The notes below the pieces were generated by a model that made no database searches, was not told where the DNA came from, and worked only from the letters and a program-made list of their open reading frames with translations. Below are positions 23,094-48,481 of a DNA stretch of 64,000 bases, one piece after another (position 1 is the stretch's first letter; each line of letters begins with the position of its first letter). The stretch is from Diacronema lutheri (taxonomy: Eukaryota; Haptophyta; Pavlovophyceae; Pavlovales; Pavlovaceae): assembly GCA_019448385.1 (NCBI GenBank), contig JAGTXO010000002.1, positions 930,001-994,000 of the forward strand, read 5' to 3'. The translations under genes and the position numbers were made by a program.

Positions 23094-23208
23094 GGCGCTT
23101 TGCGCGTTGTGTTGCTGGGCCACCGTCAGCATTCTTTATTCCCGCTCGGCAGTGCCGGCAGCGACTGCGCTCGCGCTCTCGCAGCCCTGAGAGCGTCATG
23201 GGTCGAGC

Positions 23209-26856: not shown

Positions 26857-27110
26857 TCAGCCGCGCAGGTCGGATTCGGAGACGCCCGCGCACGCGTAGA
26901 AGCCACGCTTCTCAAAGCTGCGCCGCACGGTCGGCAGCCAGCCAGCGCGCGGATTGGCGAGGAGCGGCGCGTCGTAAAAACGCGGCGCAAGGTCGCGCAG
27001 CTCGCGCAGCCGAAAGAGCGGCACGTCGCTGAAGTCGTGGTGCTCTGGAGAATACCAAGCGCCGGTATATACGACCCTTACGGGGCGTGCGAAGCCGCAA
27101 GCGGCTCGTG
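26857..27110 (-). other. Protein-like exon of unknown gene, 3' of the large Fanzor gene
   Basis: A minus-strand frame ending at a stop at 26857 reads RVVYTGAWYSPEHHDFSDVP, FRLRELRDLAPRFYDAPLL, GWLPTVRRSFEKRGFYAC. It is rich in aromatic and acidic residues and so clearly unlike shadow translation. Upstream in frame there is no nearby ATG, and the segment overlaps the last codons of the large gene in another frame. It may be a terminal exon of an alternative transcript, or a remnant of an older gene. No family recognised. Confidence 0.35.
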
Positions 27111-30100
27111 CTGAGGCTGAAGATCGCCATGAAGCGTTGTTCTCAGCAGGGTGTGGCAGGCGCGCTTCGTCGCGCCACCGGCTGCGCCGCCGCGCGGCGC
27201 CGCCACGCGCGGCGCCGCGTGCGCGCGCGCGCGCACGGCGGCGGCCGCGTCCTGTGCGCCACTGCGGCTCGCCCGTGCCCGCTTCGGGCCCGGGGGCGTG
27301 GCGCGCGTGCTCGGGCTGGCCGAGCCGCCCCGCCGCAAGGTCGCCGCCGACCGGCGAGGGGCTGCGCCGTTCGCGGCTGCCGTGCTGACGCGACGCTGGC
27401 GCTTCGCCTCCGGCGCCGCGTCGCGTGCGGACGCGAGCGAACCTCGCGCGTTGCCGCCGGTCGTGCCGGTGCCGGCAGCGGCAGCGGCAGCGGCGGCGGC
27501 GGCGGCGGCGGTGGCGGCGGCGTGTGCGGCAGCGGCTGCGGCACGACCGGCGGCGCCGGCAGCACCAGCACTGCCGCTGCGGCCGCGGCCGCGGCCGCCG
27601 CTGCGTCCGCCGCCGCGTCCGCCGCCGCGGCCGCCGCCGAGGACGCCAACGCCGCTGCCGCCGCCGCCGGCGCCGGCGCCGGCGCCGCCGCCGCCGCCGC
27701 GGCTGCCGGCACCGCCGCCGCCGGCACCGCCGCCGCCGGCACCGCCGCCGGCACCGCCGCCGCCGGCACCGCCGCCGGCACCGCCGCCGCCGCCGCCCGC
27801 CTCGTCTTCGTCCACCTGCAGCTCGCCCTTGTCGTGCTCTCTCTCGCGACCGAGGGCGCGCTGCCAAAAGGCCTTGACGCGCTTGAAGCGGCCGGGCTCG
27901 GACGTGATGCGCTCATGCCTGCCGAGGTGGTCGGCGACCATGTCGAGCACATCGTGGTAGATGCAGCGCGCCGCCGTCCAGTCGCGGTGGTAGATGATGC
28001 CGCACGCGTCGCACCGCGTCGCCCGCCACGCGCCGCGGCCGCTCGGCGAGCTGCGCGCGTACGGGTGCAGCGTGCCTCCGCATCGCTGCTGCGGCGGCGG
28101 CTGCCCCGCCGCCTCGTCCGCCGTCGTCGGCGCGCCGTCGTCGGCGGGAGCGCCTGCGCCGGCGTCGGCGGCCGGCGCCGCGCTCGCAGCGGGCGCGCCC
28201 CGCACCTCGCGCAGCTGCGAACAGCACTTGGAGCTGAGCGGCTCGGGCACGAGCGTCGCCGCGACGCCGCGCCGGCGCAGCGCGCACAGCACGCCGACGC
28301 CGAGCGCCGGCGCCTTGCCGCGCACGCAGCCGCCGCCGCGCGACCGGTGGAGCCAATCGCCGAAGAGCACGAGCAGCTGGTCTGGCCGCAGCCCTCGGTC
28401 GGTCGCGTGCGCGCGCACGATCCGCGCCGCCGCGCGCGCGCACTCGCGCCGGCCCGCGCCGCCGCGCCGCTTGCGCGCGCGCAGCCGCGCGCGCGCGCCG
28501 TACACGGGCAGCGTAGCCCGTCGCACGCGCTCGTGCGCGCGCGCGTAGGCGGCCTGGTCGTTCGCGCCGAGCGCGGTGCGCCCGCCGTGCGCCGCGCCGA
28601 GCTCCGCCTCGAGCGCGGCCGCCGTCGGCGGAGCACGCGGCGCGCGCGGCCGCGCGCCGCCCGGCCCCGACGGGCCGGCGCGCGCGCCCGGCTCGACGAG
28701 CGGCCGTTGCCGCGCGCCCTCGAGCTTGCTGCGCTCGCGCGCGTGCCCCGCGCGCGCGGCGCGCTCGCGCTGCGTGAGGCGAACCGAGGTGGGCTCGAGC
28801 CCGTGGCCGTTCGGCGCGTACGTCACGAAGCCGTCGGAGCCGGGGTCCACCGTGGCCGTCTTGAGGCCGTGCACCTCGATCGCCTCGGCCAGCTGCTCGG
28901 GCGTCGCGTCGTCGAACGTGCCGTTGGGATCGCGCCAATTGTCGAGGAAGGACTTGCTGCCGCCGGGCGGCGGCGGCTTGAACACCGGCACGACCACCTG
29001 CCAGGCGTGGCCGTTGTGGCGCATGTACACCGCCGGCTGCGGTCCGGCGGACGCGGTCGCGGGTGGGACGGCGGTGCCGACATACGTGGGCCGCTGCTCC
29101 GCCGTCACGTCGCTGCCGGGCAGCTGCTGGCCTGTCCACCGCATCGCCCGCTCGTCGAGGCTGACGAAGTGGGAGAAGATCATGTCCCTGACGCGCGGGT
29201 CGCTGGTCGCGGTGCGCGGGTCGTCGTGCGGCACGCCGTCGGCCGTCGGCAGCTTGCGCACCCAATCGCGGACGAAGGCCGTGTCGTCCTCGTCGAGCAG
29301 GAGGTACAGGTCCTGCGCGGACAGGTCGACAAAGCGCTTCTGCATGCTCCCGCGCCGGGGGCAGAGCGCGTACGGCGGCGGCTCGCCGGTGACGTGCGTG
29401 TAGAGCATCGCGAGGCGCGCGAGCAGCGACGCGCCCATCGCCGCCTTATCCGGCTGCGCGGCGCACGCAAGGGAAGGAAGGGGGGAGGGGGGGGGGGGGG
29501 GGGTGGAGGTCGGGGAGCACGCCATCAGCGCCGTCGAGCGCTCCGCGCGCCGTGGCCCTGCTGCGCGCGCGCGCGGCACGTCGTCCGCGCGGCGCGCGCC
29601 CGGCCATGCCTGGCCGCGGCGCCGCGCCGCGGAGCGCGCGCGCGCGGGGCGCGCCGCGGCACGCGCGCGGCGCCGCGCGGACGGCGCGGCCACCGTCGCG
29701 CGGCCGGCCCGTGCGTAGCCCCCTCCGTCCCCGCGCGCGCCGCGCGGCGCGCGCGCGCGCGCGCGCGCGCGCGCGCACCGTCAGGAAGTAGTTGGTCGTG
29801 TGCCTGACCTTGGGGTCAGGCGTGCTGTAGTCGCATGGGAGCACGAGCCAGTCGGCGTGCTGCGCGAGCGCGGGCGGCAGCCGCGGCGCCGCGCCGGCCG
29901 TGTCGCCGGACCACAGCAGCTTGAGCAGCGTCGCGACGTCCGCGTCGCGCTGCTCATTCGACGCGCGCGCGCCGCGCGGCTTGGCGGCCTCGCCCGCGTC
30001 GATCGCCGCGCGCAGCAGCTTGCGCAGCAGCTTGTACGCGACGCGGCGCGGGTGCATCTTGTACGCGGTGAAGATCTTCTGCGCCTCGGCGTCGACGCAG

Positions 30101-33100
30101 CCTTGTAGCGAAGGGTGCGAGCGCGCCGTCGGCGCGTCGCCCTGCGACAGCCGGTCAATGTGCCGCTGGTTGCGCGCCCGCTGCGCCGCGTTGGCCTCGC
30201 CGAGCGGATGGCCGCGCTTCTGGTCGGGCGGCAGCTCGATCTGGCGGATCAGGTTCTCCACGTCGTCCTCGCCCTTGGGGTAGCCCTTCAGCTCGTCGTC
30301 TGGGCGCTGCAGCTCGTCGCCGGGCGAGCACTGCCCGGCGTTCGGCAGCGATGTGTGCGCGCGGTCGTTGAGCACGTTGTACGTCATGCGCGTGCTGGCG
30401 TTCGCCTCGTCCACGACGTGCATCAGCTTGACGCCGTACTTTGCCCGCCCGCGAAAGGCGCCGTCGGTGAGCTCCAGGGTCCGGTACTCCGTGTGCCAGC
30501 CCTTCGGCTTCTGCAGGCAAGCGATGCGCTCGCCCGTCGCGTCCGGCGGCTCGGCCGGCGGCTCGGCGCTCGCGCAGCACGCGCAGGCGGACGCGTTGGC
30601 CGCGCCGGCCGCCGGCGCGGCCGTCCGCGCGGCGCGGCGCGGCGTCGCGGCCGGCTCCGCGCACTCGCCGCACGCGAGCACGCCCCCGCCGACCGCGCCG
30701 CCCGCGCGCGGCCGCGCCGCCGCCGCGCCGCGCCCGGACGCCGGCGCGGTGCTCACCGGCGACTTGCGGAGAGCGGCCTCGCGCTTGGCCTCCGCGCGCA
30801 GCCACGCCTCGAGCAGCCAGCCGGCCGCCTGCGCGTCGCGCTGGCGCGGCCACACGCGCCCGGCGTTGCCCAGCAGGCCGCCGCGCTCCACGCGCAGCAC
30901 GCACAGCGCGAGCGCGAGCGCCCACACGCCCGCGCGGCCGGCGGGCGGCACGTACGCACGCGAGCGCTCCGACCGGCGCAGCTGCTCGAGCGTCGCGTCG
31001 CGGCCGAACACACGCGTGACGAACCCGCCCGCCCAGCTTGTCGCCGCCGCGCCCGCCGCGCCATCGCGCGGCGCGCGCTCGAGCAGGAGGAACCGGCGCC
31101 AGCGGCCGCTCGGACCTGCGCCGTGCTCGTCGGCGGCGAGCAGGAGGAGGAGCTGCGGGTCGGCGCCGTCGCTCGGCGAGTGGACGAGCAGCAGCGCGTC
31201 GCAGTCGGTATCGTCGAGACGCTCGCGCAGCCGCTCTTGCGCGGCCGCGTGCCGTGCGTCGCGCGCGTCGAGCAGCGCGCGCGTCTCGCCAGGGCCGAAG
31301 AAGGCGCGGAACCCGCGCGCCGGGTCGCGCACCTGGGCGAGCACGCCGTCAATGGCGGCGGGCGCCACGACCGCATGCTTGCCGCCCGATGCCTTGAGCT
31401 CGTCCAGGCACCGCGCACGAGCCTCCCCCGGCGTCGGCGCCGCCGACGCCGGCGCGGACGCGACCGGCTGCTGCGTCACCGCCGCGTCGCGCGCTCGCAG
31501 CTGCGCTGCCGTCTCGCGCAGGATGAGCGCAAACACCGCCGCGCGGTACTCGGCGAGCTGCGCCGTCGCGTGCACGTTGAGCGCAAGCACGCTCGCCGCG
31601 GCAGCGAGCGCGCTCTGGTCGCCGCCGCCATCGCCGCCGCCGACGCCGCCGCCGCCGCCGCCGACGTTGGCGGCGGCGTCACGCGCGCCGAGCGCGAGCC
31701 AGGACATGACCACGACGCAGGCGGCGCGCGAATCCGCCTTGCGCTCGACGCGCCAGCGGCCGCCGACCGCGCGCCCGTGCGCCGTCGGCTGCGCCGACCG
31801 CGCGGTCGCCGGCGCAGCGCCGTCGACGGGCGGAAGCGCGCGCAGGCGGAGCGCGCGCGCGAGCCCGCGGACGAGCTGCTCCGCCTGGCGCTCGATCTCC
31901 TTGGCGCGCTCGCGCACGGCGATCGGCTTGGCCCCCGTGGCGCGCTCCGGCGCGGCGGTCGGGTTGTAGTGCTGCACCCAGCCGCCCTCGCCGTCGCGCA
32001 CGACGACCACGACGGCCGCGCCGACCCGCCGATTGGTGCTGGCGAAGAGCAGCGCGAGGTGCGTGCACTTGCCGAGGCCGTGCTCGTCCAGCGCGGCCTG
32101 CGCGCGATTGGGCTCGCCGCCGCCGTCGGCGACGGCGGCGAGCAGCGCGCGCGCGACGGCCGGTCCGGCCGTCCTCCACGGCCGGCCGGCTTTGTCCGCG
32201 GCGCGGTTGATCGCGCCGAGCTCGGCCTCGACGACGATCGAAGGCACCTCGGTGTACTTGCCCTGGAGCGCGCGCACGTCGTGCGTCGACAGCGGCCGCC
32301 CGCCACACGTGTACGTGAGCGGCGGACCGCCGAGTCGCGCCGCCGCGTCGACGCGCGCGGTGTCGGCCGCGAGCCGCGCGCGCGCCTCGGCATCGCGCTT
32401 GCGCTTGCGCGGCAGCGGCGGCAGGTGCGGCGCGACGCGGCGGCCGCGCGACTCGCCGGCCGGCTCCGCGCTCGGCGCGCCGGGCGCGCCGGCCGGCGCG
32501 CCCGCCGCGCGCGCGCTCGCGCCGCCGCCGCGCGCGCGCGCGCCGTCCGGCTCGGCCGCGTACACGAGCAGCAGCGCGCGGCCCTCGAGCGCGACCCTCG
32601 CGGTGCACGCGCGCCGGCTCGCGGCGGCAACGCGCATCCAGTCGCGATCGCCGGGCGCGAGGGCAGCGCAGGCGACGAGCCGCTCCTTGTCGTCGCACGC
32701 GTCGCGCAGCACGACGGCGACCAGCCTGAGCACGGCGGCGGGCTCGGCGTCGGCGTCGGCGTCGGCCCCGTCCGCGGTCGGCTCGGCCGGCTCGGCGCCG
32801 CGCGCGACGCGCAGCGCGAGCCGCTCGGGCATCTCGAGCAGCGACTCGGTCGCGTCCGCGACGTGCACGACGACGAGCCGCGGCGGGTTGCGCACCCCGT
32901 GCGCGCCGAGCGCGCGCGACACGGCGGCGCTGGCGCTCGCGCCGCGCGCGTCGGCGGCGCGCAGCGCGACGAGCGGCCACGCGGCCGACGCGCCGCGCGC
33001 CGAGGGCGCGCCCGGCGCCGGCGGCTCGCCGCCGCGCAGCGCGCGCTCGAGCTCGTCGCTCGCGCCGCACGCGCGCAGCACGTCGAGCAGCGCGCGCAGC

Positions 33101-36100
33101 GCGCCGTCGGCCGACAAGCCGCGCGCCGTGCCCGCCGGCCAGCCCGCCGACTGCTCGAGCGCGGCGGCGAGCGGCGCGACGCGCGCCGACTCGGGCGCGC
33201 TCTCGTCATCGGGCTCGAGCGCGTTGTGCAGGCGCGCGAGCGCGCGCGCGACGGCCGCGGCGCCACTGTCGGGGGCGCGGCTCGCCGCGCGCACCGCGCG
33301 CCGCCAGGCCGGCACGAACATGAGCGCCGACACGAGCGCCGCGAGCGCGCGCGCCTCGCGCGCGTCGCTCGCGCCGAGGCGCGGCGGCACGCGCGCGGCG
33401 CCGCGCGGCGCGGTGCCTCGGAAGCGTGGGCTTAGCGTGTAGGCGAGGTGCTGCGGCACGCCGCGCGCCTCCGCGAGCGCGCGTCCGTCCTCGACCTCGC
33501 GCCACGCCTCCTCGATCGCCGGCGTGGCGCGCGCGAGCCAGTCGGGGTCGGCGGGCAGGTGGATCACGACGAGAATCGGCGCCCAGTCCAGCCGCGGGTT
33601 CTTGTGACGGTCGGGCACGACCCACACGAGCAGCACCGTGCCCTCCGCGCCGCACGCCGCCTCGTAGATCCTGGGCTGCGAGCGCCAATCGGGCTTGACG
33701 CGCAGCGCCTGCGCGTGGACGATGGCAGCGGCGCGGTCGCCATCGAAGTGAACCGTCTTCACCTCGCCGATGACGGACCGGCCGGACCGCCAGCAGAACA
33801 CCGCGTCCGCCGACCCGCCGGCGATGGCCGCGAGCGGTTCGGGCGCGGCGAGCCGCGGCAAGCCCTCGAAGACGGCAAAGTCCTCGTCCGCATCGTACAC
33901 GCCGCCCCAGCCGTCGAGCGCGTACGCGCGCGCGGCCGCTCGTACCGCGTGCAACTGGTTCTCCACGCCCGACGTCATGTGCCATGTCGTCCCCGCGAAG
34001 CCGGGCTCGCCCAGCTTGGCCAGCACGACGTTACCGTACCCCGCGCCCTGCGTCAGGGCGGCGAGGCGGTGCATCTCCGCGCCGGTCATGACCTCCGGGC
34101 GCTGCTGCGTGACGATCGTGCCCGTCGCGTGCGCGTCGAGCGTGTCGACCACGGCGGGCGCGCGCCCGCTGTTCGCCTCAAGCCGCGCCCTGCCCGCTTT
34201 TAGCTTCTCGGGGTCCTTGGCGTCGTACACGCGCGCGTCCGCGTCGCCCTGTCCAGGCGCAGTGTAGACGCAGCGGCGTTCGCGTTCGAGCGGCGCCGAG
34301 CCACCGCCGTCCGCCGCCGCCGGCGAGGTTGGCGCCGCGCCCTCTGCCACCGCGCTCGTCGCCGCCGTGCCCGTCACCACCACCGCCGCAGCCGTCGCGC
34401 CCGCGCGTGGCGCGCACGGCGCCCTCGGTGCCGCGACGGCCGCCGCCGCCGCCACGACGAGCGCGCCCGCCGCCGCGTTCGCCGCCACGTGCGCCACCGG
34501 CGCGCCGAGCGGCGCCGAGCCACCGCCGCCCGGCGCCGCCGGCGGGGTTGGCGCCGCGGCCGTGGACGCGGCGGCGGAGGGCGCCGCGAGCGGCACGTCC
34601 CACCGCCAGCGATGCGCCGCAACGGCCACGGCCGCGCGCTCGACACCGTCGCGCGCGTCGGGCAGGCCGGCGATGTGCGCGTTCGCACTGCGGCACATCT
34701 CGTCTGCGCTCGTGCAGCGCGCCCACGCGTCGCCGAGGTCGTGGCACACGACCGCACGCGCGAGCAGCGCGAGCTCGAGCGCAAGGACGTGCGGCTTCGC
34801 GCGCGCGACGCCGCCGATCGCGACGTGCGTCGGCTCCGTGCTGAGCAGCTCCGCGCTGCGCAGCTCGCCGACGTGCGCGCGCGCGATGCGCCAGTCGTCG
34901 TCGCCGCCGACGCGCGGCGCGACGAGCAGCGGCCTCGCGGGGGCGCCCGCCGCGCGCGGCGGCAGCAAGACGAGCAGCGCCACGACCCTTCCGCCTGTGC
35001 CATCGCGCAGCGCGACGACGAGCCTGGGGCGGAGTGACGGCGTCGACCGGCGCGTGCGTTTGCGGACGCCGTCGGCGTCGGCCGCGCTGCGCGCCTCCGC
35101 GAGCACAACGTCGCCGTCGCGCGCCGCCCACGCGCCGTCGACGTGCGCGCGCGCGAAGAGCGGCGCGAGCTCGGCGGCCGCGAGCGCGGCGCACGCCGAC
35201 GGCGCGTCCGCCCCGACGCGCAGCACGTCGAGCGCGTCGCGGAGCAGCGGCGCCGTGTCCGTCGCCCACCGCCACACCTGCTCGCCGTGCGCGTCGAGCG
35301 CGCGCGCGACGGCGCACAGGCGCGCCTCGTCGGCCGCGCCGACCACTCGGCGCGCCGGCGCGTGCGGCTCGACGCGCTCGTACAGCGCGACCACGGCGAG
35401 CTCGCGCGCCTCGGCTGCCGCGCTGCCAGCGTTGTCTCGCTGCTTGCCGCCGCCGTCGACGCGCCACCAGCCGCCGTCGGGCGCGGGCGCGAGCACGGCG
35501 CACGCGTCGCGCTTGCGGCCGCGGCGCTGGACGAGCACGCTCGCCAGCGCGAACGTCGCGTCGGGGCCGCCGACGGTGCCGAGCACGAGCGCGCCGCCAC
35601 CGCCGCCGCCCGGCCCGCCGAGCTCGACCGGCTCCCTGTCGGTCGACGGGCGGTCGATCGCGACCAGCAGCGCACGCGGCGCGCTCGAGAGCCGCACTCC
35701 GCCGAGCAGCTGGGCGACGTCGCGCACGCCCGGCGCGCCGCGCTGCCCCGGCCGCGGCGCGACGCGCAGCATCGTGAACGGCGCGTCGGCCGAGCCGTCT
35801 TCGCCGGCGCAGACGCCGGAGAAGAGCTGCCAGTCGGGCAGGGCCACGTGCAGCTCGGCGACGAGCCGCTCGGCGACGCGGCGCGCGTCGCGCAGCTCGT
35901 CCGTGCGCCGCCGCGAGCGCTTGGCAGCGCAACGCGGATCGCGCAGCGCGAGCAGCAGCTGGCGGAGGCGCAGCCGCGCGCGCACGTCCGACAGCCGCGC
36001 GACGCGCACCAGCAGCGAGCGCAGCACCTCAAAGGGCGCGCGCTTCGCGTCCAGCGCGTCGCCGCGCGCGCCGCCGGACGGCGCAAAGGCGAGCGCCAGC

Positions 36101-36239
36101 TGCTCGCGCACAGTCGCGGCGGCCGCGAGCAGCTCGAGCACCGCCTCGGGGCTGGCCAGCGCGAAGTCCTCTGGGGCTGCCGACGGCGAGCCTTGGCCGC
36201 CGCCGCCGCCGCCGCCGTCGCCTCCGTCGCCGCCTCCGC

Positions 36240-36270
<31 letters not shown>

Positions 36271-37455
36271 GCCGCCGTCGGCGGAGTCGTCGTCGGTGTC
36301 GTGACCCGCATCGTCGTTGGAGAGGTCGTCGTCCCCGTCCTCCGCGTCCTCCCCGTCGTCAGCGGTGGTGGCGTCGCCATCGCCCCCGTCGCCCTCGCCC
36401 ACGCCGAGGCTGCTGAATGGTCGGTGCCCCCACGCCGAGGCGGCGCGCCGCTGCGGCGCACGCGGCGGTGGCGCTCGCGACGGCGGCCTTGGCGCCGCCG
36501 CGCCGCGCGGCCTGGCCGCCGTCGACAGCGCGCGGCCTGCAGCGCCCGTGAGCGCGTCGAGCGCGGCCGTGCGTGCGATGCGGTCGTCGGGCGCGCGCAG
36601 CGCCGCCTCGACGGCCTGCAGCAGCCCGTCGGGCGCGGATCCGCCGATACTGGCACCGCACGCCTCGGCGAGCCGCGCGGCCTCGGCGAGCCGCGCGGCC
36701 TCGTCGGTGAATGCGCCGCAGCGCCTGGCGCCGTCGTCGAGCAGAGCGCCGACGGCGGCGTGGAGCGTGCGCTTGCGGGTCTCCTCGTACGCGGCCGTCG
36801 TGAGTCGCGTGAGGCGCGCGTTCAAAGCCTTCTTGATCCCGACAAGGACATTCGCGCGGCGGCCCGCCGTCGGCGCTGCGCTCGCCGCGACCTCGGCCGC
36901 GAGTGTTGCCGCGGCGAAGCAACACTCGTTCCCACTCTGCGCGGGCGCCTTCAAGGCATCGATGGGCGGCGCTGGGATGCCGATGCGCTGGGCGAGCGTC
37001 GTGATGAGCTTGCCGGCCGCCGTGGCGTGCGCCGACTCGCCATTGCCCAAGCTGAGCGAATCGGCGTGCAGGGCGAGCGCGGCGCCGGGCGGCGCGCCGC
37101 GCTGCGCGGGCGGCGCGAGGAGCAGGTACGCCGCCGTCCAGTGATCGAGGCCGCTGGACGCGCGGAGGCAGAGCGGTAGCACGACCACGAGCACCTGCCC
37201 AAGCCGGTCCGCATCCGCGCATGCTTTGCCCAGGTTGCGCAGCGCCACCTTGAGCGCATGCTTCGAGCACGCCTTGAACTCCACCTTGACCACGCTCGGG
37301 CCGAGACTCTCGCCATGCAGCAGGGCGAGGACGCACTCGGGTGGGACCACGTGGGGGTGGCGCACACTGTTCGCCACGGTGGTGCTGAGGGCCAGCGAGA
37401 AACTGTCCGAGCTGCCCAGCCCGCCGCGCAAAGCGTCCTTCACGGAGTCCTCCAT
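27078..37455 (-). CDS. Giant multidomain protein: Ulp1-like protease, PD-(D/E)XK nuclease, protease-like modules, Fanzor nuclease
   Basis: Exon 1 (37455-29779, one 7.7-kb open frame) and exon 2 (29453-27078) encode 3,350 residues. Residues ~40-200 resemble a C48 Ulp1 protease (GLDHW, LHADSL, AQSGNECCF supply His, Asp, Gln, Cys). Residues 430-700 and 1340-1630 look like degenerate USP folds (FALASVLVQRR...WWRVDG...VALYER). Residues 1150-1320 hold a PD-(D/E)XK core (GVENQLHAVRAAA, GSADAVF, IGEVKTV). Residues 1690-2180 contain further degraded Ulp1-like modules. From about 2450 it is a Fanzor: HPRRVAYKLLRKLL, then TVDPGSDG (~2760), VPEPLSSKC (~2960), RCDACGIIYHRDWTAARC (~3050). The intron falls directly after TTNYFLT. 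Splicing as one protein is inferred from the open frame; proteolytic processing or two genes are possible. Confidence 0.7.
29454..29778 (-). other. Intron of the giant gene with C tract and GC-alternating donor side
   Basis: GTGCGCGCGCG donor at 29778 and CCGCGCAG acceptor at 29454, phase 0. Removing it joins TTNYFLT to PDKAAMGASLLARLAMLY, which aligns with the homologous stretch of the Fanzor at the window start. It contains a C-run on the coding strand (about 29486-29504 on plus as G) shortly before the acceptor. Confidence 0.8.
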
Positions 37456-39770
37456 CTGCAGACTGTGGACACGTCAGTGTCCGGATGGCAGCCCGGATGA
37501 TACTTGGGGAGAATTTACATGATGCCCTGGAGAATGCCCCGCTCTCCCACAACCAGGACCCGCCAGCGCGCCGAGCCTACTCGTTTGCCCGCGCCGCCTC
37601 TCTTTGCGCGCCCGAGCGCGGCCTCCGAGCGCGGCCAACGTCCTCCGGGGGCGTGCATCGTGGCTGCTCGGAGGGGCTGCGACGCGGCGAAAGCTCGCTG
37701 CGCGGCCGCAACGTGAGCGCGCGCGCGCGGCCGCGCGCCGGCCTGCGCTGCTCTGCACGGCCGCGCGCCGGCCTGCGCAGCCTCGTCGCGCAGCGTGAGC
37801 GCGAGCGCGCGCGCGGTGAGCTCGGCGGATGGGTGCGCGGCGGCGTTGGCGGCGGGTGCGGCGGCAGGCTGGGCGGCGGGTTTGGACGGAGAGTGTCGGG
37901 GAAGAACGGGGCGCATCCTGGTTGGGAGTTGGACGGCGCCCACCACGCGCTGGCGGATCCTGGTTGCCACCACCACCACTCCCCCCCCCCCCCCCCCCCC
38001 CCCCCGGAGACGAGGACCAGGGGCATGGCCGACTCGCTGCGCCGCACAGCGCGCGGCGCGCGGCATGCTGCGCGACCTCAAGCACATCCAGCCGCGCTCC
38101 GCGCACGCAACGCGCGCAATGCCGCGTTGCACTGCGGGTGTGCACGTGCGGCTCTCACGCGCACTGTGTTGCACGAACGGCATCACGCCACCCAGCTGCG
38201 TCCGGACCACGCGCCGCGCGCAGGCGACCACACAGGGGCGCGCCGCGCCGCGCGTGCGCGCCCTCGCAACCGTTGCAGCACGCTCTGCCTTGCACTGCGC
38301 CGAGCCGCCGCGCGCTGTGCGCGTGCATGCAGGGCGCACGCGTGCGACGAAGCGCGCGCGCGGCGAGGCGCGCGGGCGGCTCGCTGCGCGGGCGGCAACG
38401 CGCCCAGCTGCGCCCAGGCCAGGCGCGCGCCCGCGAGTGCCACCGGGACGCACTGCCCCCGCCGGGGTCGCCGCGCGCTCTGTGTGTGCGCTCGCGCGCT
38501 GCGAGCGCGGCGGAACGTTCGTGCATGGCGCGAAGAGCGCGGCACCCGAAGACGTCTGCACCGAGCCCGCGCCGGGTGGCAGCGAGCGGCGGCACCTCCT
38601 CGGCGAGCCCGCCCCGCGCCTTCCCCTCCACGTGGCGTTTTGAGGCAGACGGACACGCGCCCGAACTGCGACTGGGCACGCTGCTCAAGGCAGACACGCA
38701 CCCAACGCGCGCGCATCACGCGCCCGCGTCGGCGGGCCGGTGTGAACGAGCGAGAGCTCGGTGTCGCCAACGGGGGCACGGGCGCGAGTTCGGTCCGCCT
38801 CTCGACGGACGCAGGCGACGCTGCCGGGAACTTCCCCGACGCCTGCACATCCAGGGCTTCGAGGTACAGAGCTGGGCAACAGTGCCGCTCGTCACCGATG
38901 AGGCGGCCAAGCTCGCTATCCTTGCTGCCCTCAGCTCCACCAAACAGCCGGGCGACCCAACGGTTCGTGATCGCCTGGCCGCCAGTTGCGAACCGCGCCC
39001 ATGCAGGCGCTTCACCCGCATTCTCCGCCCCGCTGCGGACGTCCGCCTGCCGGCCGCGAACACGGCCGGTGCGCGCTGCCGCCTGGCCCAACACGAAAAC
39101 CCGCACGCCCTCGAGGCCGCAGGTCCTACCTGCCCAAGCGCAGCCCAACGGCACGCAGACAGCCCGCCTTGGCAACCGACTCGTGCGCGAGCGCTCCGCC
39201 CTCCACAAGAGCCTGCCCCACGCCACCGCCGACGCGGAGCCAGCGCAGCCGACGCCCCTCCGCGACGCTCGCGCCGCAAGGCGCAAGGGCCCCGGCAAGA
39301 CGGCGTCAACCAAGCCCGCCGCTGGCACAGCGCCGGCACCCGGAGCCCACCCCAAGCCCCCGCGCACGCCTCGCACCCCCGATCGGCGGACCGATTGCGT
39401 TTTGGTGCGCCGGGCTCAAAGCGCCATCGCAGTGGCGGGCCCGCAGACGCAGACGCTGACATGCCCAACGCTGGGCACTGAGGCCGCAGGCCGGCCCTCC
39501 TGGACCTGGCGGGCAGCGGGCCACGCGAGCCTCGCACTGACCGTGGCGGTCGCTGCCGCCGTGATAGCTGCGGGTGCGGCGGCCTTGGCCCCAACCCCAT
39601 CATCCGTCTTCATCCCCGCCCTGCTCGCGCTCGCGGCCTACGTCGGCAATCCCTGCACCGGGATCCGCCCCGCGAAGTCCACATAAGACCCATCCGTGCT
39701 GCACGCCAGCCGCGCGCGCCGACGCGCGCCGCTCCCACACGCTCACCTCAGTTTCCGCGGGCGGCCCAAC
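37456..39770. other. Region without a recognisable gene; possible degraded retroelement 5' part
   Basis: Long frames exist on both strands but are Arg/Ala/Pro-rich. The most protein-like piece on plus is FEVQSWATVPLVTDEAAKLA with AILAALSSTKQPGDPTVRDR (about 38860-38980), and a hydrophobic Ala/Val stretch at 39520-39640. These could be remains of a LINE first ORF upstream of the endonuclease fragment, but no diagnostic motif is present. A C homopolymer lies at about 37981-38005. Confidence 0.4.
37981..38005. repeat. C homopolymer tract
   Basis: About 25 consecutive C on the plus strand, following CACCACCACCACT. No gene assigned around it. By analogy with the other tracts it may mark a plus-strand intron. 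Confidence 0.9.
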
Positions 39771-39842
39771 GCCCCCCCCCCCCCCCCCCCCCCCCCCCAC
39801 CCAACCCACCCCAGCCCCCCCCCCCCCCCCCCCCCCCCCCCC
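39771..39842. repeat. Two adjacent C homopolymer tracts
   Basis: Two runs of about 25 C separated by ACCCAACCCACCCCAG. They lie about 100 bp upstream of the LINE endonuclease-like fragment on the same strand. Assembly accuracy in such runs is doubtful. Confidence 0.9.
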
Positions 39843-39884
39843 GGCATGCGGCCATCGAGCCGCATTAGCACACCCGCCCGGGGC

Positions 39885-40090
39885 CTCCCGCCGCACCCGC
39901 AGCGGCTCGGCGCCTTGAATCCTCCCGTCCCCCGGGGTGAGGCCTCCAACCCGGGCCCAGCGCGCTCCGACTGCCTCACGCTCGCCAGCGCCAACCTCGG
40001 CGGCATGGTAGGCCCCGAGCGAAAAGCCGCACTTCTCGCCGTTCTCGTCAGGCGCAAGTACGATGTCCTCCTCCTACTGCCGACGCGGCT
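39885..40090 (+). mobile_element. Fragment of a non-LTR (LINE) endonuclease N-terminus
   Basis: A plus-strand frame reads LNPPVPRGEASNPGPARSD, then SANLGGMVGPERKAALLAVL and RKYDVLLL. The GEASNPGP box followed by a NLGG...K...YDVLLLQET-type beginning is the usual start of the apurinic-like endonuclease of LINE retrotransposons from algae and protists. The expected QETRL appears degraded to LPTRLS, and homology stops shortly after, with no downstream endonuclease or reverse transcriptase. It is therefore a 5' remnant or a truncated copy, not an active element. Confidence 0.6.
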
Positions 40091-40215
40091 CTCTCGCGCG
40101 CGGACTACCGCGCCGGGCAGATCGCCGCAGACGCACGTGAGTGCACACGTGCGGACAAGGCGCACACGCTCGACGTCCAGCCAGCGCACGTGCACGTGCA
40201 CGCCACTGGTCACAT

Positions 40216-41840
40216 TTAAGCGTCCGTGCTCGCCCACAGCGTCGCCATCCACAAGATGCGCGCTGGAGCCATCCAAGCAGGGCTCTGCCTGCTCGGCTTC
40301 CGCAAGGCAACTTGGGCCGCGGACAGCGGACAGCGGACGGCGTGCGCGTGCGAGGTGCGAAAGGAGGAAGGAGGTAGGGAGAGTGGTGTGTGTGTGGGGG
40401 GGGGGGGGGGGGGGGGGGAGGGCACAGCGGCCGCCGGAGACGAGGACGCACTCACCGCTGTTGGCAATGCGCGCGTCACGGAGACAACTTGGCGGGCCTC
40501 GCGCGCAGCTGGGCCGATCGCCGCCGTAGAGATGTCTGCAGCCGTCTCCGCGATGCCGATCGTCGCATCTGTTGGCACCGCTGCCATCTGCCGCACCCGC
40601 GGCCAGGCTGCCGGCAAGGTCGGCGCGTCGGGCTCCGAGCTCGGCCACGCAGACGATGCGGCCGACGGCGGTGACGCTAAGCCCAGCGCCGGGTCCAACG
40701 GCTCCACGTCGAGCCGGCTGTAAAAGAGCATGCTCGCACCACTTGCCCACGCCAGCGCGTCGGACTCTGGCACGTTGTAGATCTGCGCGGGCAACGCGCG
40801 TGCGTGCGGCAGGCGCGCGCGCGAGCTTTCAGGCCACGCGCGCGTGCCGCGCGGGAGGACGGGGCGGTTGCGGCTGCGCTCGACCGCCGGTCGCGGCACC
40901 GAGCGACCGTGCGCGCCGCCGCACGTTGTAGTCGTCGCACGGAAGCCAAGCCTCGTTGCGGAGCACGATGGCGACAAGGTGCCCGCTCATCGGCCCCTCG
41001 CCCACGTGCACCACGCCGGCGACGAGGAGGTGGTCGCGCCCGCCGAGTAGCAGCCGCGGCGCGCACACGAGCGCGCGGTTTTTCTTGCACTGCGGGCCAT
41101 TGCCGCGCGTCGTGCGCGGCGCCTCGACAGCAATGCTGGCTGGCGTGAGCACGCCCGAGTGGCACGCGTTCGTGTGGCCATCCCGCGGCGGCCCAGCGGC
41201 GCCCCCCAGAGCGTGTGCAAGCGCGCGCGCCGCATCGCCGCCGACGCTGACGAGTACGGCGATGCCCTCGCCGGACTCTGAAGGCACGGCGATCTGCTCG
41301 AGCACTGGCCCGACGCGTGTGTCGGCTTCGAAGGCCGCAGCGAGCCCGGGCACTCGGCCGAGCAGCAACCGGAAGAACTCAGCGGCATCCTGCGGCGTCC
41401 TTCGCGCGCCACGGCCCGAGATGACGTCGATGACGGACACAAGACACAGCCGTGTCGGCGCCTTGGTGTCCTCGATCAGCGTGCCAAAGTCCCGAAAACG
41501 CGCCCTCTCGACGCTGTTGGCACGGCGCGAAGCGGAGCGAAGCATCGCACGGAGCACGTTCAGGGCGAAGAGCGATTGCATAAGGACGTCGTGTAGCACG
41601 CGTTGCCCTCGTTCTTCGCGCCTGCGCCGCGCCGCGCAGCGCCGGGTGTGCGGGGTGCGCACGCACGGTTTGCGGCGGGATGGAGGGAGGCTGGCTGGGC
41701 GCGCGCCGAGCCCGGCAAGCCGTGCAGGCGCTCACCACGCGGCACGCCGGGCACTCTCACCGGCCACATCGGGCCGTCAAACGCGTCTTCCACAGGCTGC
41801 CGACCGACGACGTAAAACTTGCTCAAGGCGCTGCGCCGTG
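40216..41840 (-). pseudogene. USP-type (C19) deubiquitinase-like gene with one frameshift
   Basis: The Cys box is KNEGNACYTTSL near 41600. Right after it the frame changes (about 41585) and continues MQSLFALNVLRAML. Further motifs: RRTPQDAAEFFRLLLGR, then VAGVVHVGEGPMSGHLVAIV, AWLPCDDYN, then across an intron (40924-40783) IYNVPESDALAWASGASMLF and YSR. A second intron 40455-40285 has a GTGAGTGCG donor and a C tract; the last exon ends at 40216. Catalytic Cys, His and Asp are all visible, so the domain was functional recently. A single base change restores the frame; it could be an assembly error. The N-terminal exon includes FYVVGRQPVEDAFDGPMWP (about 41765-41830). USPs remove ubiquitin; a protease in a mobile-element neighbourhood is notable. 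Confidence 0.72.
40396..40420. repeat. G homopolymer tract (C on coding strand) in USP-like intron
   Basis: About 22 G after GTGTGTGTGT on plus. It lies inside the second intron of the USP-like gene, thus a C tract on its coding strand. Confidence 0.9.
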
Positions 41841-42324
41841 CACGCGCCATGCGCGCGCTGTTGCGGGCTACGCAGAAGGGACGACGGGGGAATTGGCGAG
41901 CGAGGGTTGGGCGCAGATCAGCGTGGTGGCGCGGCAAGACGAGCGCGCGCCGGGCGTCTGGCGCGGAGGCGCCCCGCGCGAGGACGCGAGCCGCTTCTCG
42001 CACCGGACGGGCGCCCACGCGCAAGCCGGCTTTCGAGGGCTGGTGGATGGTGGCAGATGCCGAAACGGACACATGGAATGATGCGTCGGCGGCGCGAGCG
42101 CGGGACGATCTTGCCCGGGCAATTGTGCGCACGCTGCCAGCGCGCGTATGCGTGCGCATGCAGCGGGCGGCGCGCACGTTGCGCGTGACGGGGCGCCGAG
42201 CGGCACACCGGCGGGGACGCGCTCGCCGCTGCCGTGGCATCGTACGCTGCCTGCGTGCTGGCCCGCACGCACGTTGCCGGCGCGAGGGGACGGCGAGTGC
42301 GCCTCGGCCGAACAGGCGCGAGCG

Positions 42325-42744
42325 TTACGCCCGAGCGCGTGGCCGGGCCCCGCCGACTGCACGCAGCGCCGGCCCAGGCGCGCACCCGCCCGACGCGGAT
42401 TTGGACGACGCATCGAACGGCACGCCGAGCGTCTGCGCCCGCCTCGCGGCCGGTCGCGCCGGCCCCTCTTCGGCTCGAGGCCGCACGTCCGCCGCGCGCC
42501 GCTTCGGCGCGCGGCGCGGCGCTCCCGGAACGCGCATGGCACACGCGCGGTGCGCGGGCACGCCCGCAACGCGCCATTCCAGCGCGAGCAGTTCGGCAAG
42601 CTTGCAGCGCGCGAGCAGCCGGGCATGTGCCGCGGAAACACAGTTCGCTGTGTGCGCCGGCCGCGACGACACGGCGTAGCGGCGCGAGGCTGGCCGCCGG
42701 GGCCACGGGCGTACTGCCGTGGCGCGACGCCATGGTATGAGCAT
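42325..42744 (-). CDS. Hypothetical ORF upstream of the USP-like gene
   Basis: 139 residues from ATG 42744. The segment ARLLARCKLAELLALEWRVA followed by GVPAHRACAMRVPGAP and TLGVPFDASSKSASGG is more protein-like than its surroundings. It could be the N-terminal exon of the USP-like gene or the distal, decayed tail of the helicase gene. No domain recognised. Confidence 0.25.
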   Translation of the reverse strand: MLIPWRRATAVRPWPRRPASRRYAVSSRPAHTANCVSAAHARLLARCKLAELLALEWRVAGVPAHRACAMRVPGAPRRAPKRRAADVRPRAEEGPARPAARRAQTLGVPFDASSKSASGGCAPGPALRAVGGARPRARA

Positions 42745-43379
42745 TAAATTCATCGGGGGGTGGGGTGGGGGGGGGGGGGGGCGCGTTGTGCGCGCTCGGC
42801 GCGCGAGTGGTGCCAGTGGCGGGCGAGCCTCGTCGCCCACGGAGCCCGCCCCCGGCTCGGCGGCGCGCCGCCTGCTCGCCGGGTCGCGCACCGCCGTCGC
42901 CGCCGCTGCGCGCTTGCCCAGCTTGCCGGCAGGCGGCAGGCGGCGGCGACGGCGGCGGCGGCGGCTGCGGCGCGAGCGCGACGCCGGGCGGCGGCAGCGC
43001 CGACGGCACGCGCGTGGCGGCGACCCACGCGGCGGCGGGCGGCGCGCCGGCTTGAGGCCCCTGCACGCCGGCCGCATTGGCGCCGCCCTGCGCGCCCGCG
43101 AAGGGCGCGCAGGTACGCGGGCCGGTCGCGCGGCGCGCGGTGCTGGCGAGCATCCGCCGGCTGCGCGTCGGCGCGAGCGGCGCGGCGGGCGTCGCGCCGG
43201 CGGGTGCTGGCCAGCACCGCGCGCCGGCGGCGCGCCCGCCGCCAGCGCGCCGCCCGCCGCCGGCGCCGCGCGCGCCGTCCGCGCCGCGCCCGCCGCGCTC
43301 GCCGCCACCGCGCGCCGCCGCCGCGCATTCGCGCGCGGCGGCGACGGCGGCCGCGGCGAGCGCCGCCGCCGCCGCCTCG
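42745..43379. other. Low-complexity Ala/Pro/Arg-coding DNA with a G tract
   Basis: Follows the last helicase motif on the minus strand. Frames on both strands are Ala-, Pro- or Arg-rich. A run of about 20 G interrupted by a T is at 42756-42781. No gene can be supported. Confidence 0.5.
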
Positions 43380-45758
43380 CCACCGCTGACCGCGCGGAGC
43401 ACCTCTTTGAAGACGACGCTGCGCGTCACGAGGTCCGCGCCGAGCGCAAAGCGGACGCGCGACGTGTGCCCGACGCGCGAAGCGGCCACGTGGAGCTGGC
43501 CGTGCGTGAAGCACGGCTCGGCGAGCCACACGCCCGCGCACCCGAGCGCTTGCCCCTGCGCCTCGTTACGCCGGCCGCACCGGGGAACTGGCGGCGCATC
43601 CGCACAAGCGCGAACGTGCCGTCGTCGGGCGAGTGGTGGTCGACACGCGCGACGAGCACGGTGCTGTCGCGCCCGGCGGCCGCGCCGGGGCGTGCGCACT
43701 CGAGCAGCCGGCCGCCGGCGCGCACGCCGCGCACGATCAGCCGCGTGCCGCCGCACAGCCCCTCGCCGGGCGAGAGGTTGCGCGGCAGCATCACCACCAT
43801 CCCGGGCTTCAGGTCGAGGACGCGGTGCGGCATCTGCGCGTGCTCGAGCGAGTAAGGGAACTCGACCGACGCCAGCGCAATCTGCCCGCCCGCCATGTCG
43901 TCGCGCCAGCTCGTCCGCCGACGCGCACCTCGCCGCCGCGCCCGGGAAGCGGCCGATCACCAGCCAGTTGATCCGCGCCACGTCCGTCTGCTTGGCGCAG
44001 AGCACCGCGCGGTCGCACAGCGAGCCGTCGTCGGTCCAACACGTCGCGCCGTGGACAAAGTCGTCACGAGCTCCGTCGGGTAGGCCGAGCCCACGCGGAT
44101 GGGGACGCCGCCGACGGCCTCGGGCAGCTGCACGGGATCGAGCGGGAATGCGCCGGGCATGGCCCCGGCCGCCGGCACCGCCGCGGGAACGGCGCCGTCG
44201 CCGGGGCTGCGCAGCAGCTCCGCCCACTCGCCCGCGCCGAGCGCGTCGCCCGTGTCGCGCGCCGCGCTCGAGGCGCGAACGTTCTCGACCAAGGCGTGCT
44301 GCCGATCGTGCTGCCACGGCGCCGAGTACTTGAGGCAGGAGCGCACGATCTGCGCGCGCGAGCCGCGCCGCACCACCGGCAAGCACTGGCGAAAGTCGCC
44401 GGCGAGCAGCAGCGTCTCGCCGCCGAAGCGCTCGTCGACGCCCGTCACGTCGCGCAAACACCGATCAGGCGAGTCGAGGTGGCACCGCGTCTGCATCGGC
44501 GCCTCGTCCCACACGACCAGCCGCCGCGGCGGCCAGGGAGCGCCCGCGCTCGGAGCGCGGCACGCCATTGAACGGCTTGCCCGTCGGAGTCGGCACCGCC
44601 GGGCACCTTGAAGGTCAAGTGGAAGGTGCGGCCGTCGGGCAGCAGCGTGGCGGCGACGCCCGAGGACGCGCCCACGACGACCGCGTGCCCATCCGCGCGC
44701 ACGGCGGCGATAATGGCGCGCTCGACGAACGTCTTGCCCGTTCCGCCCGGCGCGTCGCAAAGATGCAGCCGGTTGCCCACGCCGCGCAGCGCCGATTTGA
44801 CGACCGCGCCGTGGAGCGCGCACTGCTGGCCGCCCTCGGCCATCGCCGCGCGCGCCGCCGCCGCGCTCGCAGCCCGCTCGGCGCGATGGTAGCCCTGCGC
44901 GCGCGCGAGCTCGCGCCCGCCCGGCCCGGCCGGCGCGCGCGCCGTGCGCAGACCGGCCACCGCCGCGAGCGCCGCCGCGCGCTCGCGCTCGTCGGGCACG
45001 TACAGCCCCGTGGAGTCGAACGTGTCGGCCCAGGCGGGCACGCCGTACGAGGCGAAGGCGTCCGAGCCGGGCTGCGGCCGCTGCTCGGCGCGCTTCAGGA
45101 GCATGACCCCGCACACGTTCCACTTGGTGCCAAACATCGAGCCCGTGAGCCCCGTGTAGACGCGGTCGAGCTGCGTGGCGATGGCGCAGACGTCCTCGTG
45201 CCGGATCTCGTCGACCGGTTCGCGCCGCGCGTCGACGAGCGGCACGACGCGCTCGGAGCCCGCCCACGTGAACGTGCGCGTCGACATGTTCAGCCGCGTG
45301 TGCGCGAGCGTGTCGTCCTCGTACTTGGGCTTGACGGCGGGCGAGAGCTTGCCGCGCACCTCCTCCTTCGAGAGGCCGCGCGTGTTGAGCAGCTCCTTCT
45401 GGCGCGCGTGCACCGTCTCGACGCGCTGATCGTCGATGGCGCGCAGGGCGCCAAAGTAGGCGTCCATCTGCGCGAGCGGCGCGCCTTCAATCGGCAGCTC
45501 CTTGTCGGTCACGCCGGCCGTGTACGCCGCCTTGTCGACGTCCGTCGGCCCGTACATGGTGCCAAAGTTGCCGTCGCCCGTGAGCTCGGGCCAGTCGACG
45601 ACGCAGGGCGGCGAGACGAAGGCGAGCGCGCGGCGCGACGGCCCGTAGCTCAGCTTGTCGACCGTGCGCGCCTGCTCGCTCGGCTTGACCGGCCGCGTGC
45701 TCACGATCTCGCAGTTGGCGAGCGCCGCGTCGAAGGCGCGCAGGTCGATGGCGGCCAT
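43380..45758 (-). pseudogene. Helitron-type PIF1 helicase with ssDNA-binding-like N-terminus, frame-broken
   Basis: Starts MAAIDLRAFDAALANCEIVS at 45758. Residues ~25-220 (KLSYGPSRRALAF, VDWPELTGDGNFGTMYGPTD, GLTGSMFGTKWNVCGVML) resemble the ssDNA-binding proteins of large algal DNA viruses (DUF5871-like). The helicase follows: LCDAPGGTGKTFV (Walker A), VVWDEAPMQT, PDRCLRDVTG, FGGETLLLAGDFRQCLPVV, DRAVLCAKQTDVARIN, LPRNLSPGEGLCGGTRLIV, NEAQGQALG, HGQLHVAASRV. These match the PIF1-like helicase of Helitrons. The motifs lie in different frames; changes are needed near 44530, 44050, 43905 and 43590. No HUH/Rep nuclease is seen. The TTG-started extension to 45830 is not used. Confidence 0.78.
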
Positions 45759-46233
45759 GGTCGTTGTGCGCGGGAGATCACGCTGCAGGCGGCTCCACAG
45801 TAGGTTCGAGAAAAAAAAAAGCTGGGCCAACGGTCAGTCGAGCGCCACAAGCAATCCTCGGGAGCCGGTGGCCCAACCCAACCCAACGATCTTCGTCGCC
45901 ACCCTTCGCGCGTTTTCCGTTCGCGCCCAAGCAGACAATGAGACCACAATCTCGGTGCTGCTCGGCGCGATGATGGGCCTCAGCGGCTCGGTGGCGATCG
46001 TGCTCTACGTGCGCGCGCGACGTCGCGAGGTGCAGCACGGGCGCGTGGCGACGCCGCGCATCATCCAGCGCCAGCTCGAGCTGCAGCTGCCGTGGGGCCG
46101 GCCGGACGAGGCATCCGTCGCCTCGCGTGCCGAAACGCCGGGCGTCGAGGCCGCGTCGCGCTCGGTGCGCGACGCGGCGCCCGAGCCGGACCCGGACGAG
46201 GGCTACGTGCGCGTGGCGAGCGCGGCGTTCTGA
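45747..46233 (+). CDS. Hypothetical single-TM protein
   Basis: The C-terminal 100 residues look real: NETTISVLLGAMMGLSGSVA then IVLYVRARRREVQHGRV, RQLELQLPWGRPDEAS and an acidic end PEPDPDEGYVRVASAAF. One TM helix is followed by a basic stop-transfer sequence. The start is uncertain: ATG 45747 would overlap the antisense start of the helicase gene by 12 bp and give a basic, possibly organelle-targeting N-terminus; ATG 45970 lies within the TM. No family recognised. The unbroken frame contrasts with the decayed helicase beside it. Confidence 0.4.
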
Positions 46234-46317
46234 GGCGCGCACGACGTCGCCCAGCCAGAGCAGCCCGGGGCGGGGCGAGTCCGGCTGCGCGGAGGTCCGG
46301 CTCGAGCGGGCGGGCGC

Positions 46318-46662
46318 CATGCTCTGAGGCGCCGCCGCTTTCTAAAAGGGTGTAGGGTGTAGGGTGTAGGATGCAAAACAAGCCCTCCCCACATTTGGGC
46401 CCGACGTCATTCCTTCTTCGAAGCCGTGACGTTACTCACATACGAGTACCTTTACTTAGTGTAGGATGTATCTATTCTCTAGGTATTTGCATAGTGTAGG
46501 GTGTAGGATAAGTACGGTTATGAAAGTCCCATAGGGGGGAGAAGGAATGACGCTGTGACGAAAGAAGGAATGACGTCGGGCCCAGATGTGGGGAGGGCTT
46601 GTTTTGCATCCTACACCCTACACCCTACACCCTTTTGAAAAGCGGCGGCGCCTCAGAGCATG
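46318..46662. mobile_element. MITE-like element, copy 1
   Basis: About 345 bp with long terminal inverted repeats: TCTAAAAGGGTGTAGGGTGT at the left is mirrored by CACCCTACACCCTTTTGAAA at the right. The TIR extends inward through GCAAAACAAGCCCTCCCCAC and GGGCCCGACGTCATTCCTTC (about 80 bp). The AT-rich core contains TACTCACATACGAGTACC and further TGTAGGG/TGTAGGAT heptamers. There is no ORF, so it is a nonautonomous element. The base composition is far more AT-rich than the window. Confidence 0.85.
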
Positions 46663-46869
46663 GCGGCTCGACAGCATGGCGCCTATACAGCATGGCGTCG
46701 TCCAGCGTCACGCCGCGTCGTGGTCCTGCCGCTCCTCCGTGGCGCACGGATGGCGCTCCTCCGTGACGCAGCCGAACGACGTCGCGGCGTCACGGCCCGG
46801 GCGCATTCGCCATCCTGGACGCCACGCTGGACGACGCCATGCTGTCGAGGCGCCATGCTGTCGAGCCGC

Positions 46870-47200
46870 CATGCTCCGAGGCGCCGCCGCTTTCTAAAAG
46901 GGTGTAGGGTGTAGGGTGTAGGATGCAAAACAAGCCCTCCCCACATTTGGGCCCGACGTCATTCCTTCTTTCGTCACAGCGTCATTCCTTCTCCCCCCTA
47001 TGGGACTTTCATAACCGTACTTATCCTACACCCTACACTATGCAAATACCTAGAGAATAGATACATCCTACACTAAGTAAAGGTACTCGTATGTGAGTAA
47101 CGTCACGGCTTCGAAGAGGAATGACGTCGGGCCCAAATGTGGGGAGGGCTTGTTTTGCATCCTACACCCTACACCCTACACCCTTTTAGAAAGCGGCGCC
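46870..47200. mobile_element. MITE-like element, copy 2, inverted relative to copy 1
   Basis: Near-identical reverse complement of copy 1, including the core (GTAACGTCACGGCTTCGAAG side now at the right). It differs by small indels, for example CTTCTTTCGTCACAGCG against the copy 1 complement. With copy 1 it makes a palindrome of about 880 bp. The spacer 46663-46869 also ends in inverted GACAGCATGGC / GCCATGCTGTC motifs. Confidence 0.85.
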
Positions 47201-47615
47201 GAAGGTGGGAGGATGCCACCCGTATGCGCGCGTTTGAACGTGCGCGGACGGCCGTTGGCTTCGCGCCCTTTCGCCCACGGTTTGCGCGCCAACGGACCAG
47301 TCCTCCGCGGGCGCCGCGCATCGTCTCAGGGGCGGTCGGTGTGGTACGCCGCGCGCATCGTCAGCGCCGCGGCGTCGAGCTCGGCGAGCGAGGGCGCGTA
47401 CGTGACGCCGCTCAGCACCTCGTCCGCGCCCGCCCTCGTCGCGCTCGCCGCCTCCGCAGTGCGCGCAGGCGGCTTCGTGACGGCACGCGAGGCCACGCCG
47501 CGCGCCGCAGGTGCCTTCGCGCGCTGCATCGTCTGTCTGCCGGTCCGACGCGCTCTGCTCTGAACGAACGGACGGCACGCCCGACGAGATCTCGTCGCGT
47601 GCACGCTCGCACAGC

Positions 47616-48448: not shown

Positions 48449-48481
<33 letters not shown>

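Follow-up and report, generated by a model that had tools for sequence, protein, structure and literature searches.

A multi-copy 22-kb element in Diacronema lutheri with a predicted giant protein carrying Ulp1-like, lambda-exonuclease-like and Fanzor regions

We analysed 64,000 nucleotides of the genome of the haptophyte Diacronema lutheri, whose established role in aquaculture is described in PMC8379373. This whole stretch, referred to here as the window, covers positions 930,001 to 994,000 of contig JAGTXO010000002.1 in assembly GCA_019448385.1 (forward strand; C69:930001-994000 in our labelling), and the genome searched comprised 43,492,796 bp on 103 contigs. An earlier note, made from the letters of the window, had described one giant gene at 27078..37455 that fuses protease-like, nuclease and Fanzor parts, and had proposed that a mobile element encodes it. 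The long gene does lie there, but the feature is larger than stated, since the repeat spans 27065-49200. All on one strand, this element is predicted from sequence to encode a helicase of Pif1 type, a deubiquitinase of USP type and a protein of 3,356 residues with Ulp1-like, lambda-exo-like and Fanzor regions. The features of the element and of the giant gene, in window coordinates, are as follows.

27065..49200, no strand: whole mobile element, 22,136 bp, delimited by shared edges and a right-end signature
27065..27110, plus: left terminus, GTATATACGACCC..., with two predicted hairpins
49125..49200, plus: right terminus, the TACGACCCGGGTCGTA palindrome followed by ...GACCGCGCC(C/G)TATATAG
29779..37473, minus: exon 1 (2,565 codons, counted from the preceding stop) of the giant gene; the start codon is provisional
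29454..29778, minus: GT-AG intron of 325 nt, 304-325 nt across 11 copies
27078..29453, minus: exon 2; the stop codon falls within the loop of the hairpin at the left terminus, 13 bp inside the edge of the element
36844..37473, minus: Ulp1(C48)-like motif set (DHW 37146-37138, HADSL from 37068, AQSGNECC from 36942), motifs only
33574..34272, minus: PD-(D/E)XK region, lambda-exo/YqaJ-like (MTGAEM, M-x2-G-x6-A, GSADAVF, GEVKT, DWRSQ)
29779..30534, minus: Fanzor N-terminal part in exon 1, limits approximate
27809..29453, minus: Fanzor C-terminal part, with RuvC-I, RuvC-II and RuvC-III motifs and zinc-ribbon-like cysteines

Fixed ends, many copies and differing host flanks bear out the proposal that this repeat is mobile. 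In all ten copies fetched, the left edge coincided with window position 27065 and the host flanks were unlike; the right edge lies at 49200. The left 336 bp were found at a minimum of 27 places including the window (93-100% identity over at least 263 of the 336 bases, with 40 of 110 candidates scored), and diverged forms occur at further places. The right-end signature, allowing up to two mismatches, occurred 225 times in the genome and never in a reversed control. Pairing of the ends drew on right-end places on C1 to C71, among which no mismatch was seen; on these contigs, 8 of 16 left ends could be matched to a right end of suitable distance and strand, and C78 supplied a ninth pair. The nine pairs, matched by hand, measure 21.3 to 27.0 kb, and the eight unpaired left ends may reflect truncation or a variant right end. 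When positions 42500-50500 were used as a query, 11 of the 21 scored places shared only the right-hand 6.4 kb (42781-49200, 99-100% identity), indicating that the elements are mosaic.

The giant gene rests on an open frame of 2,675 codons (29446-37473, minus strand). Across 200 dinucleotide shuffles of 27065-37473, the longest frame measured 665 codons at the median and never exceeded 1,304, and a chance open frame was therefore rejected. A second frame of 900 codons follows at 27078-29780 on the same strand, and the two are joined in frame through a splice junction, ACG|GT...CAG|CCG, at 29778-29454. The intron is supported because the resulting junction, HTTNYFLT|PD(K/R), is used by all five D. 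lutheri gene-model proteins found, and because the intron differs in length in 11 of 11 copies, window included, with no fixed remainder modulo 3 and a constant exon junction. Splicing would yield a product of 3,356 residues, with the first ATG at residue 7 and long low-complexity linkers between its parts. The earlier description of a 3,350-codon gene made of one long open frame plus a second exon thus proved accurate in outline.

At the C-terminal end of this protein, a Fanzor, a eukaryotic relative of the RNA-guided CRISPR cutters, is credible from its motifs. Exon 2 encodes TVDPGS, LFGDW, VPEPLSSKCC and RCDACG...HRDWTAARCI, in which RuvC-I is TVDPGS from 28853, the RuvC-II Glu lies in VPEPLSSKCC from 28250 and RuvC-III is HRDW from 27989. 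The RuvC D, E and D occur in this order, with the zinc-ribbon-like region between the E and the last D; they align with those of a canonical Fanzor family in this genome (L055), the E column being common to all three sequences compared. In ten or more of the 11 copies, the RuvC motifs are intact. Of the ribbon cysteines, the second pair is present as CDAC; the first reads SSKCCSQL and not CxxC, and a further Cys stands at QRCGG. The PF07282 ribbon profile, with a cut-off of 26.3 bits, scored 17.4 in the window copy, 15.0 in a copy (C91) of the related sister element introduced below and 39.6 in L055. Thus, of the full split RuvC/zinc-ribbon nuclease that had been claimed, the RuvC triad holds but the ribbon stays under its cut-off. 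A sequence search of the PDB with exon 2 matched no Fanzor, and L055 itself aligned weakly with SpuFz1 (8gkh) over the RuvC part (E=0.21).

Further towards the N terminus, residues 1220-1240 contain GSADAVF...GEVKT, whose earlier reading as a PD-(D/E)XK-type core is supported by the retention of the core in diverged paralogues. The window nuclease shows 28, 33 and 32% identity to diverged families (alignment A1) and 26-30% to the paralogous gene-model protein P0003 (E 4e-5 to 1e-3). Among five sequences, D161 and E175 are invariant and the Lys of E-x-K is found in four; invariant columns include TG, M, G, A, D, E and SQ...Y. Ten lambda-family phage exonucleases carry TAS, G-x3-E-x2-A, SPDG, E-x-K and Q in the same order as the window. 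Profile alignment with hhalign to lambda-exo relatives scored 22.99, compared with at most 18.21 in 150 column shuffles and 13.3 for the reversed profile; the match covers only 55 columns, spanning TG and G...A and ending before the catalytic core, which is matched solely by motif order. Searches with Pfam (including YqaJ), PHROG and PDB profiles gave no match of this region to the lambda-exo/YqaJ family. Within it, positions 34150-34183 hold frame-breaking indels in five of ten copies, either a hot spot or an unrecognised intron.

The N-terminal region carries DHW, HADSL and AQSGNECC at residues 110-185, in His-Asp-Gln-Cys order, a motif that we take to resemble a Ulp1 domain. Exact motifs were counted across 11 copies, with the His present in 8, the Asp in 11 and the Gln-Cys in 10. 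No profile or PDB match to the region emerged at E values up to 10. The Ulp1-like set noted previously stands as residues in the stated order and marks a putative protease.

A sister family has its right end and part of its coding region in common with the window element. The nuclease region has 145 matches in the genome, 9 at 94-100% identity and 136 at 88-89%. The lower-identity group falls mainly in a frame of 1,345 codons, with some members in frames as long as 6,136 codons; two of this group (C78 and C86, in frames of 2,902 and 2,899 codons) belong to the window's element by position. The sister element itself (for example C91; loci L041 and L054) occupies more than 100 places and is near-identical over the 259 residues compared. 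Contigs frequently terminate at it, and positions relative to contig ends suggest a length of about 31 kb, with contigs breaking at the element. Ribbons over the PF07282 cut-off were found at no fewer than 148 genomic places (150 of 306 candidates scored). Six of them (C1, C6, C8, C12, C26 and C29) are only 0.67-1.1 kb away from the start of their contig, which suggests that they sit where the left end of the sister element would be, the window ribbon being 0.9 kb from its own left end. In C91, a second protease-like stretch (L041:1371-1841, minus; H...D...QRGATCG) looks by eye nearer to the Ulp1 pattern than that of the window; it gave no relevant Pfam or PDB match.

Two more genes of the element lie upstream of the giant frame.

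40925..41619, minus: USP/C19-like deubiquitinase (Cys box NEGNACY, QDAAEF, His box SGHLVAIV...DDY)
44386..45758, minus: Pif1-type helicase (Walker A 44730-44759, DEAP motif 44497-44523)

The USP domain scored 30.8 bits against UCH PF00443 (cut-off 23.9) when an X was placed at a frame break, and its unbroken part alone scored 23.7. In the window copy, the reading frame is interrupted by a one-base break just after the Cys box. At the break, C36a and C12 carry the same sequence as the window copy; the comparison covers these three of 11 copies, the ones that the search string matched. A ubiquitin-protease signal is, on these sequence comparisons, better supported in this upstream domain, beyond the coordinates of the earlier note, than in the giant protein. 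For the helicase, Pfam gave 87.8 and 53.3 bits in two frames; introns or breaks are expected in the gene because the helicase motifs occupy more than one frame. Ahead of the helicase lies a 331-residue domain (44766-45758, minus) with no Pfam match, which may resemble the single-stranded-DNA-binding proteins of large DNA viruses.

Other observations concern the element and its surroundings. At 39687-40529 on the plus strand, a short AP-type endonuclease-like start (ASNPGP...LTLASANLGG) was seen by eye, with no Pfam match. Positions 46315-47201 hold nested inverted repeats with 294-nt arms that are 98% complementary and 115 nt apart, also present in other copies, together with further inverted arms of 85-104 nt in this right part of the element. 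The adjoining host gene encodes radial spoke protein 3 (23196-25757, minus; PF06098, 312 bits), and the same stretch carries a 48-bp tandem repeat.

Taken together, we favour a giant Fanzor-bearing element of about 22 kb in which an RNA-guided cutter and a lambda-exo-like nuclease lie on one polypeptide and aid copying by cutting, resection and recombination, an explanation to which we assign a probability of roughly one half. From the anatomy, the copies, the conserved residues and the partly colinear paralogue order, which were observed directly, we infer one mRNA, activity, a guide RNA and copying along the following lines. In TnpB and Fanzor systems, the element flank serves as the guide. 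Because the giant gene ends in the terminal hairpin, its transcripts would enter flanking host DNA and carry such a guide. By analogy with TnpB, a minus-strand transcript could supply both the message and the guide scaffold; TnpB and Fanzor scaffolds are described as including the transposon end (PMC10711439). The Fanzor, loaded with element-end RNA, would then cleave element-free allelic or sister sites. The exonuclease, being part of this polypeptide, would resect the break, and recombination assisted by the helicase would copy the element in. Processing of the polyprotein, or a dampening of the host damage response, would fall to the protease and deubiquitinase modules. A cut-and-copy route via recombination is put forward in the literature for TnpB and is extended by analogy to Fanzor (PMC10432273); a Fanzor fused to a recombination-type exonuclease would point to this route and make it testable.

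Several observations weigh against this explanation, some given here and others with the alternatives on which they bear. Glu85 of lambda exonuclease has a role in metal binding. Counted from the shared Gly, its equivalent is Gln in the window family and in the diverged family L056, and Glu only in L057 and L058. The own probability of hhalign for the lambda-exo relatives is 1-3%. Because of this Gln, the low probability and the lack of a family profile match, we call the region lambda-exo-like and not a member of the family. AlphaFold2 modelled the nuclease region at low confidence (pLDDT 44, pTM 0.49); the model places D and E-x-K on strands, followed by a helix and a strand, in line with expectation, but is too weak to use, and structural comparison was uninformative. 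In the C91 sister copy, the Ulp1-like residues are lost (VHW, LADSR and AACC replace the motifs), as is the E-x-K lysine. No transposase was matched by Pfam among the 14 window open reading frames scanned, 13 of them inside the element.

The first alternative is that two or more genes or isoforms are present, the Fanzor being made separately or through a skipping splice form, so that the fusion is apparent only; we consider this unlikely, though with an appreciable chance. Public gene models bear on it in both directions. Gene-model protein KFE25_006200 maps to the window, and the public model of the window locus (P0006) starts at the USP His box, covers residues 442-908, jumps from there to residue 2,539 within the Fanzor and finishes in host sequence, omitting the Ulp1-like and PD-(D/E)XK parts. 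P0004 and P0007, from other copies, make similar jumps, the three models skipping from about residue 780 or 910 to 2,538, and in P0005 the Fanzor part is preceded by sequence that does not align with the giant protein. Separate products would also fit the long low-complexity linkers that set the parts apart, as well as C91, the one sister copy read, where the nuclease frame stops well ahead of a Fanzor that is itself split over two frames. By contrast, no stop occurs between the nuclease and the splice donor in a frame far beyond those of the shuffles, and a single model, P0003, combines the nuclease with the N-terminal part of the Fanzor. Its product is colinear with the giant protein over residues 641-754, 1069-1245, 1490-1554 and 2465-2685, and its best genomic match (C74, 99%) has the nuclease about 6.6-7.2 kb from the left end, like the window copy. 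The RuvC part is nevertheless absent from P0003, and the match over its nuclease is a weak one (E=0.002). Models of near-identical copies disagree, as expected of misprediction in repeats, and P0006, P0004, P0007 and P0005 look like such mispredictions. For the nuclease-Fanzor fusion proposed from the letters, the order in P0003 therefore speaks in favour, whereas P0006 splices out both protease and nuclease. Separately, P0004 (KFE25_007303) joins element exons to a protein kinase domain, either a chimaeric transcript or a misprediction.

A second alternative concerns the class of the element and is compatible with a Fanzor-bearing giant element: a rolling-circle Helitron2 that captured a Fanzor, like CRe-1 to CRe-3 of Chlamydomonas, with the giant protein as incidental cargo. 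PMC3627910 describes the features of Helitron2 and the capture of Fanzor by such elements. This assignment is doubtful. It would account for the Pif1 helicase, for three insertions that showed no target duplication beyond the terminal TATATA carried by all copies examined, for a short stretch with an inverted match close to either end (TACGACCC / GGGTCGTA) and for the predicted hairpins at both termini, of which the left has ACGaCCC-TTAC-GGGgCGT and a second around GCCGCAAGCGGC. The hairpin energies are, however, unexceptional at 1.7-1.8 standard deviations better than shuffles (left end, z = -1.7, equalled by 13 of 200; right end, z = -1.8, equalled by 10 of 200), and the distance of the right-hand inverted match from the end is about 50 nt rather than 20-30. 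No HUH Rep was found in the element: a loose search gave a single PF14214 match in the genome, on C63 and outside the element, and the H-x-H...Y pattern does not occur in 37474-49205. A Helitron with a recognisable HUH Rep was thus rejected, although a diverged or intron-split Rep could escape. A terminal-inverted-repeat element was dismissed as well, the first 13 or 20 bases having no second copy in the window.

The third alternative, which we regard as improbable, is a decayed, non-autonomous passenger whose frame was once functional and whose copies were moved or amplified by other elements, the protein itself being inert. Frame-breaking indels in exon 1 or 2 were present in six of the ten other copies (C1, C12, C28, C36b, C46a and C75a), at 34150-34183 in five of these six. 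Changes among copies over the long frame summed to 338 nonsynonymous and 109 synonymous, intron part included, and three NG86 comparisons put dN/dS at 2.2, 2.1 and 2.0. No recent purifying selection that would prove function is hence visible among the copies; constraint shows solely in the conservation between families. The break in the USP frame, the catalytic losses in C91 and the missing transposase match would all suit a passenger. Against it, the whole frame is kept in the window and in four of ten copies (C36a, C6, C34 and C75b), and 9 of 11 copies retain all six RuvC and nuclease motifs, each read in whatever frame holds it. Post-insertion drift is expected in any transposon, and G/C-rich third positions may lower apparent dS. 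Since such positions probably change less for reasons of composition, we do not take a dN/dS of about 2 as positive selection.

A bolder form of the Fanzor-bearing giant element would be an all-in-one RNA-guided homing machine of 22-31 kb, with a guide-directed cutter and an end-resecting nuclease in one polypeptide and a helicase and deubiquitinase alongside; we hold this to be a speculative and rather unlikely extension. If it were true, the same logic would keep the more than 100 sister copies near-identical.

Among known systems, TnpB of IS605/IS607 and Fanzors such as SpuFz1 (8gkh) show the same RuvC D-E-D order. They are also alike in having the Glu just ahead of the ribbon (VPEPLSSKCC in the window, IDESYTSQDCSKC in L055) and the 3' end of the gene at the element end. 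The size differs, SPu-1-1p having 633 aa (PMC3627910) against 3,356 residues here. Lambda exonuclease and YqaJ have their TAS/TG, G...A, D, E-x-K and Q motifs in the same order and at roughly the same spacing, but the window domain lies inside a giant protein, has Gln for Glu85 and lacks a Pfam YqaJ match. Ulp1 (C48) proteases have the same H-D-Q-C order, although the window region has no profile match. Compared with USP (C19) deubiquitinases, the upstream domain exceeds the UCH cut-off, but its frame is broken in the window copy. No description of such a giant Fanzor fusion element was found in the literature searched. The closest parallels are the Helitron2 elements CRe-1, CRe-2 and CRe-3 of Chlamydomonas (Bao and Jurka 2013, PMC3627910), which resemble the window element as multi-copy algal repeats with a RuvC/zinc-ribbon Fanzor and terminal hairpins. 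Their Fanzor1 genes have five or ten exons, with no fusion mentioned in the sections of that paper on them, whereas the window Fanzor forms the C-terminal end of a frame of 3,356 residues; the window element further differs in its 22 kb, nuclease core, helicase and USP domains and in that no Rep was found. Relative to the Fanzor elements covered in those sections of PMC3627910, the core nuclease is known, and the giant fusion and its setting are new.

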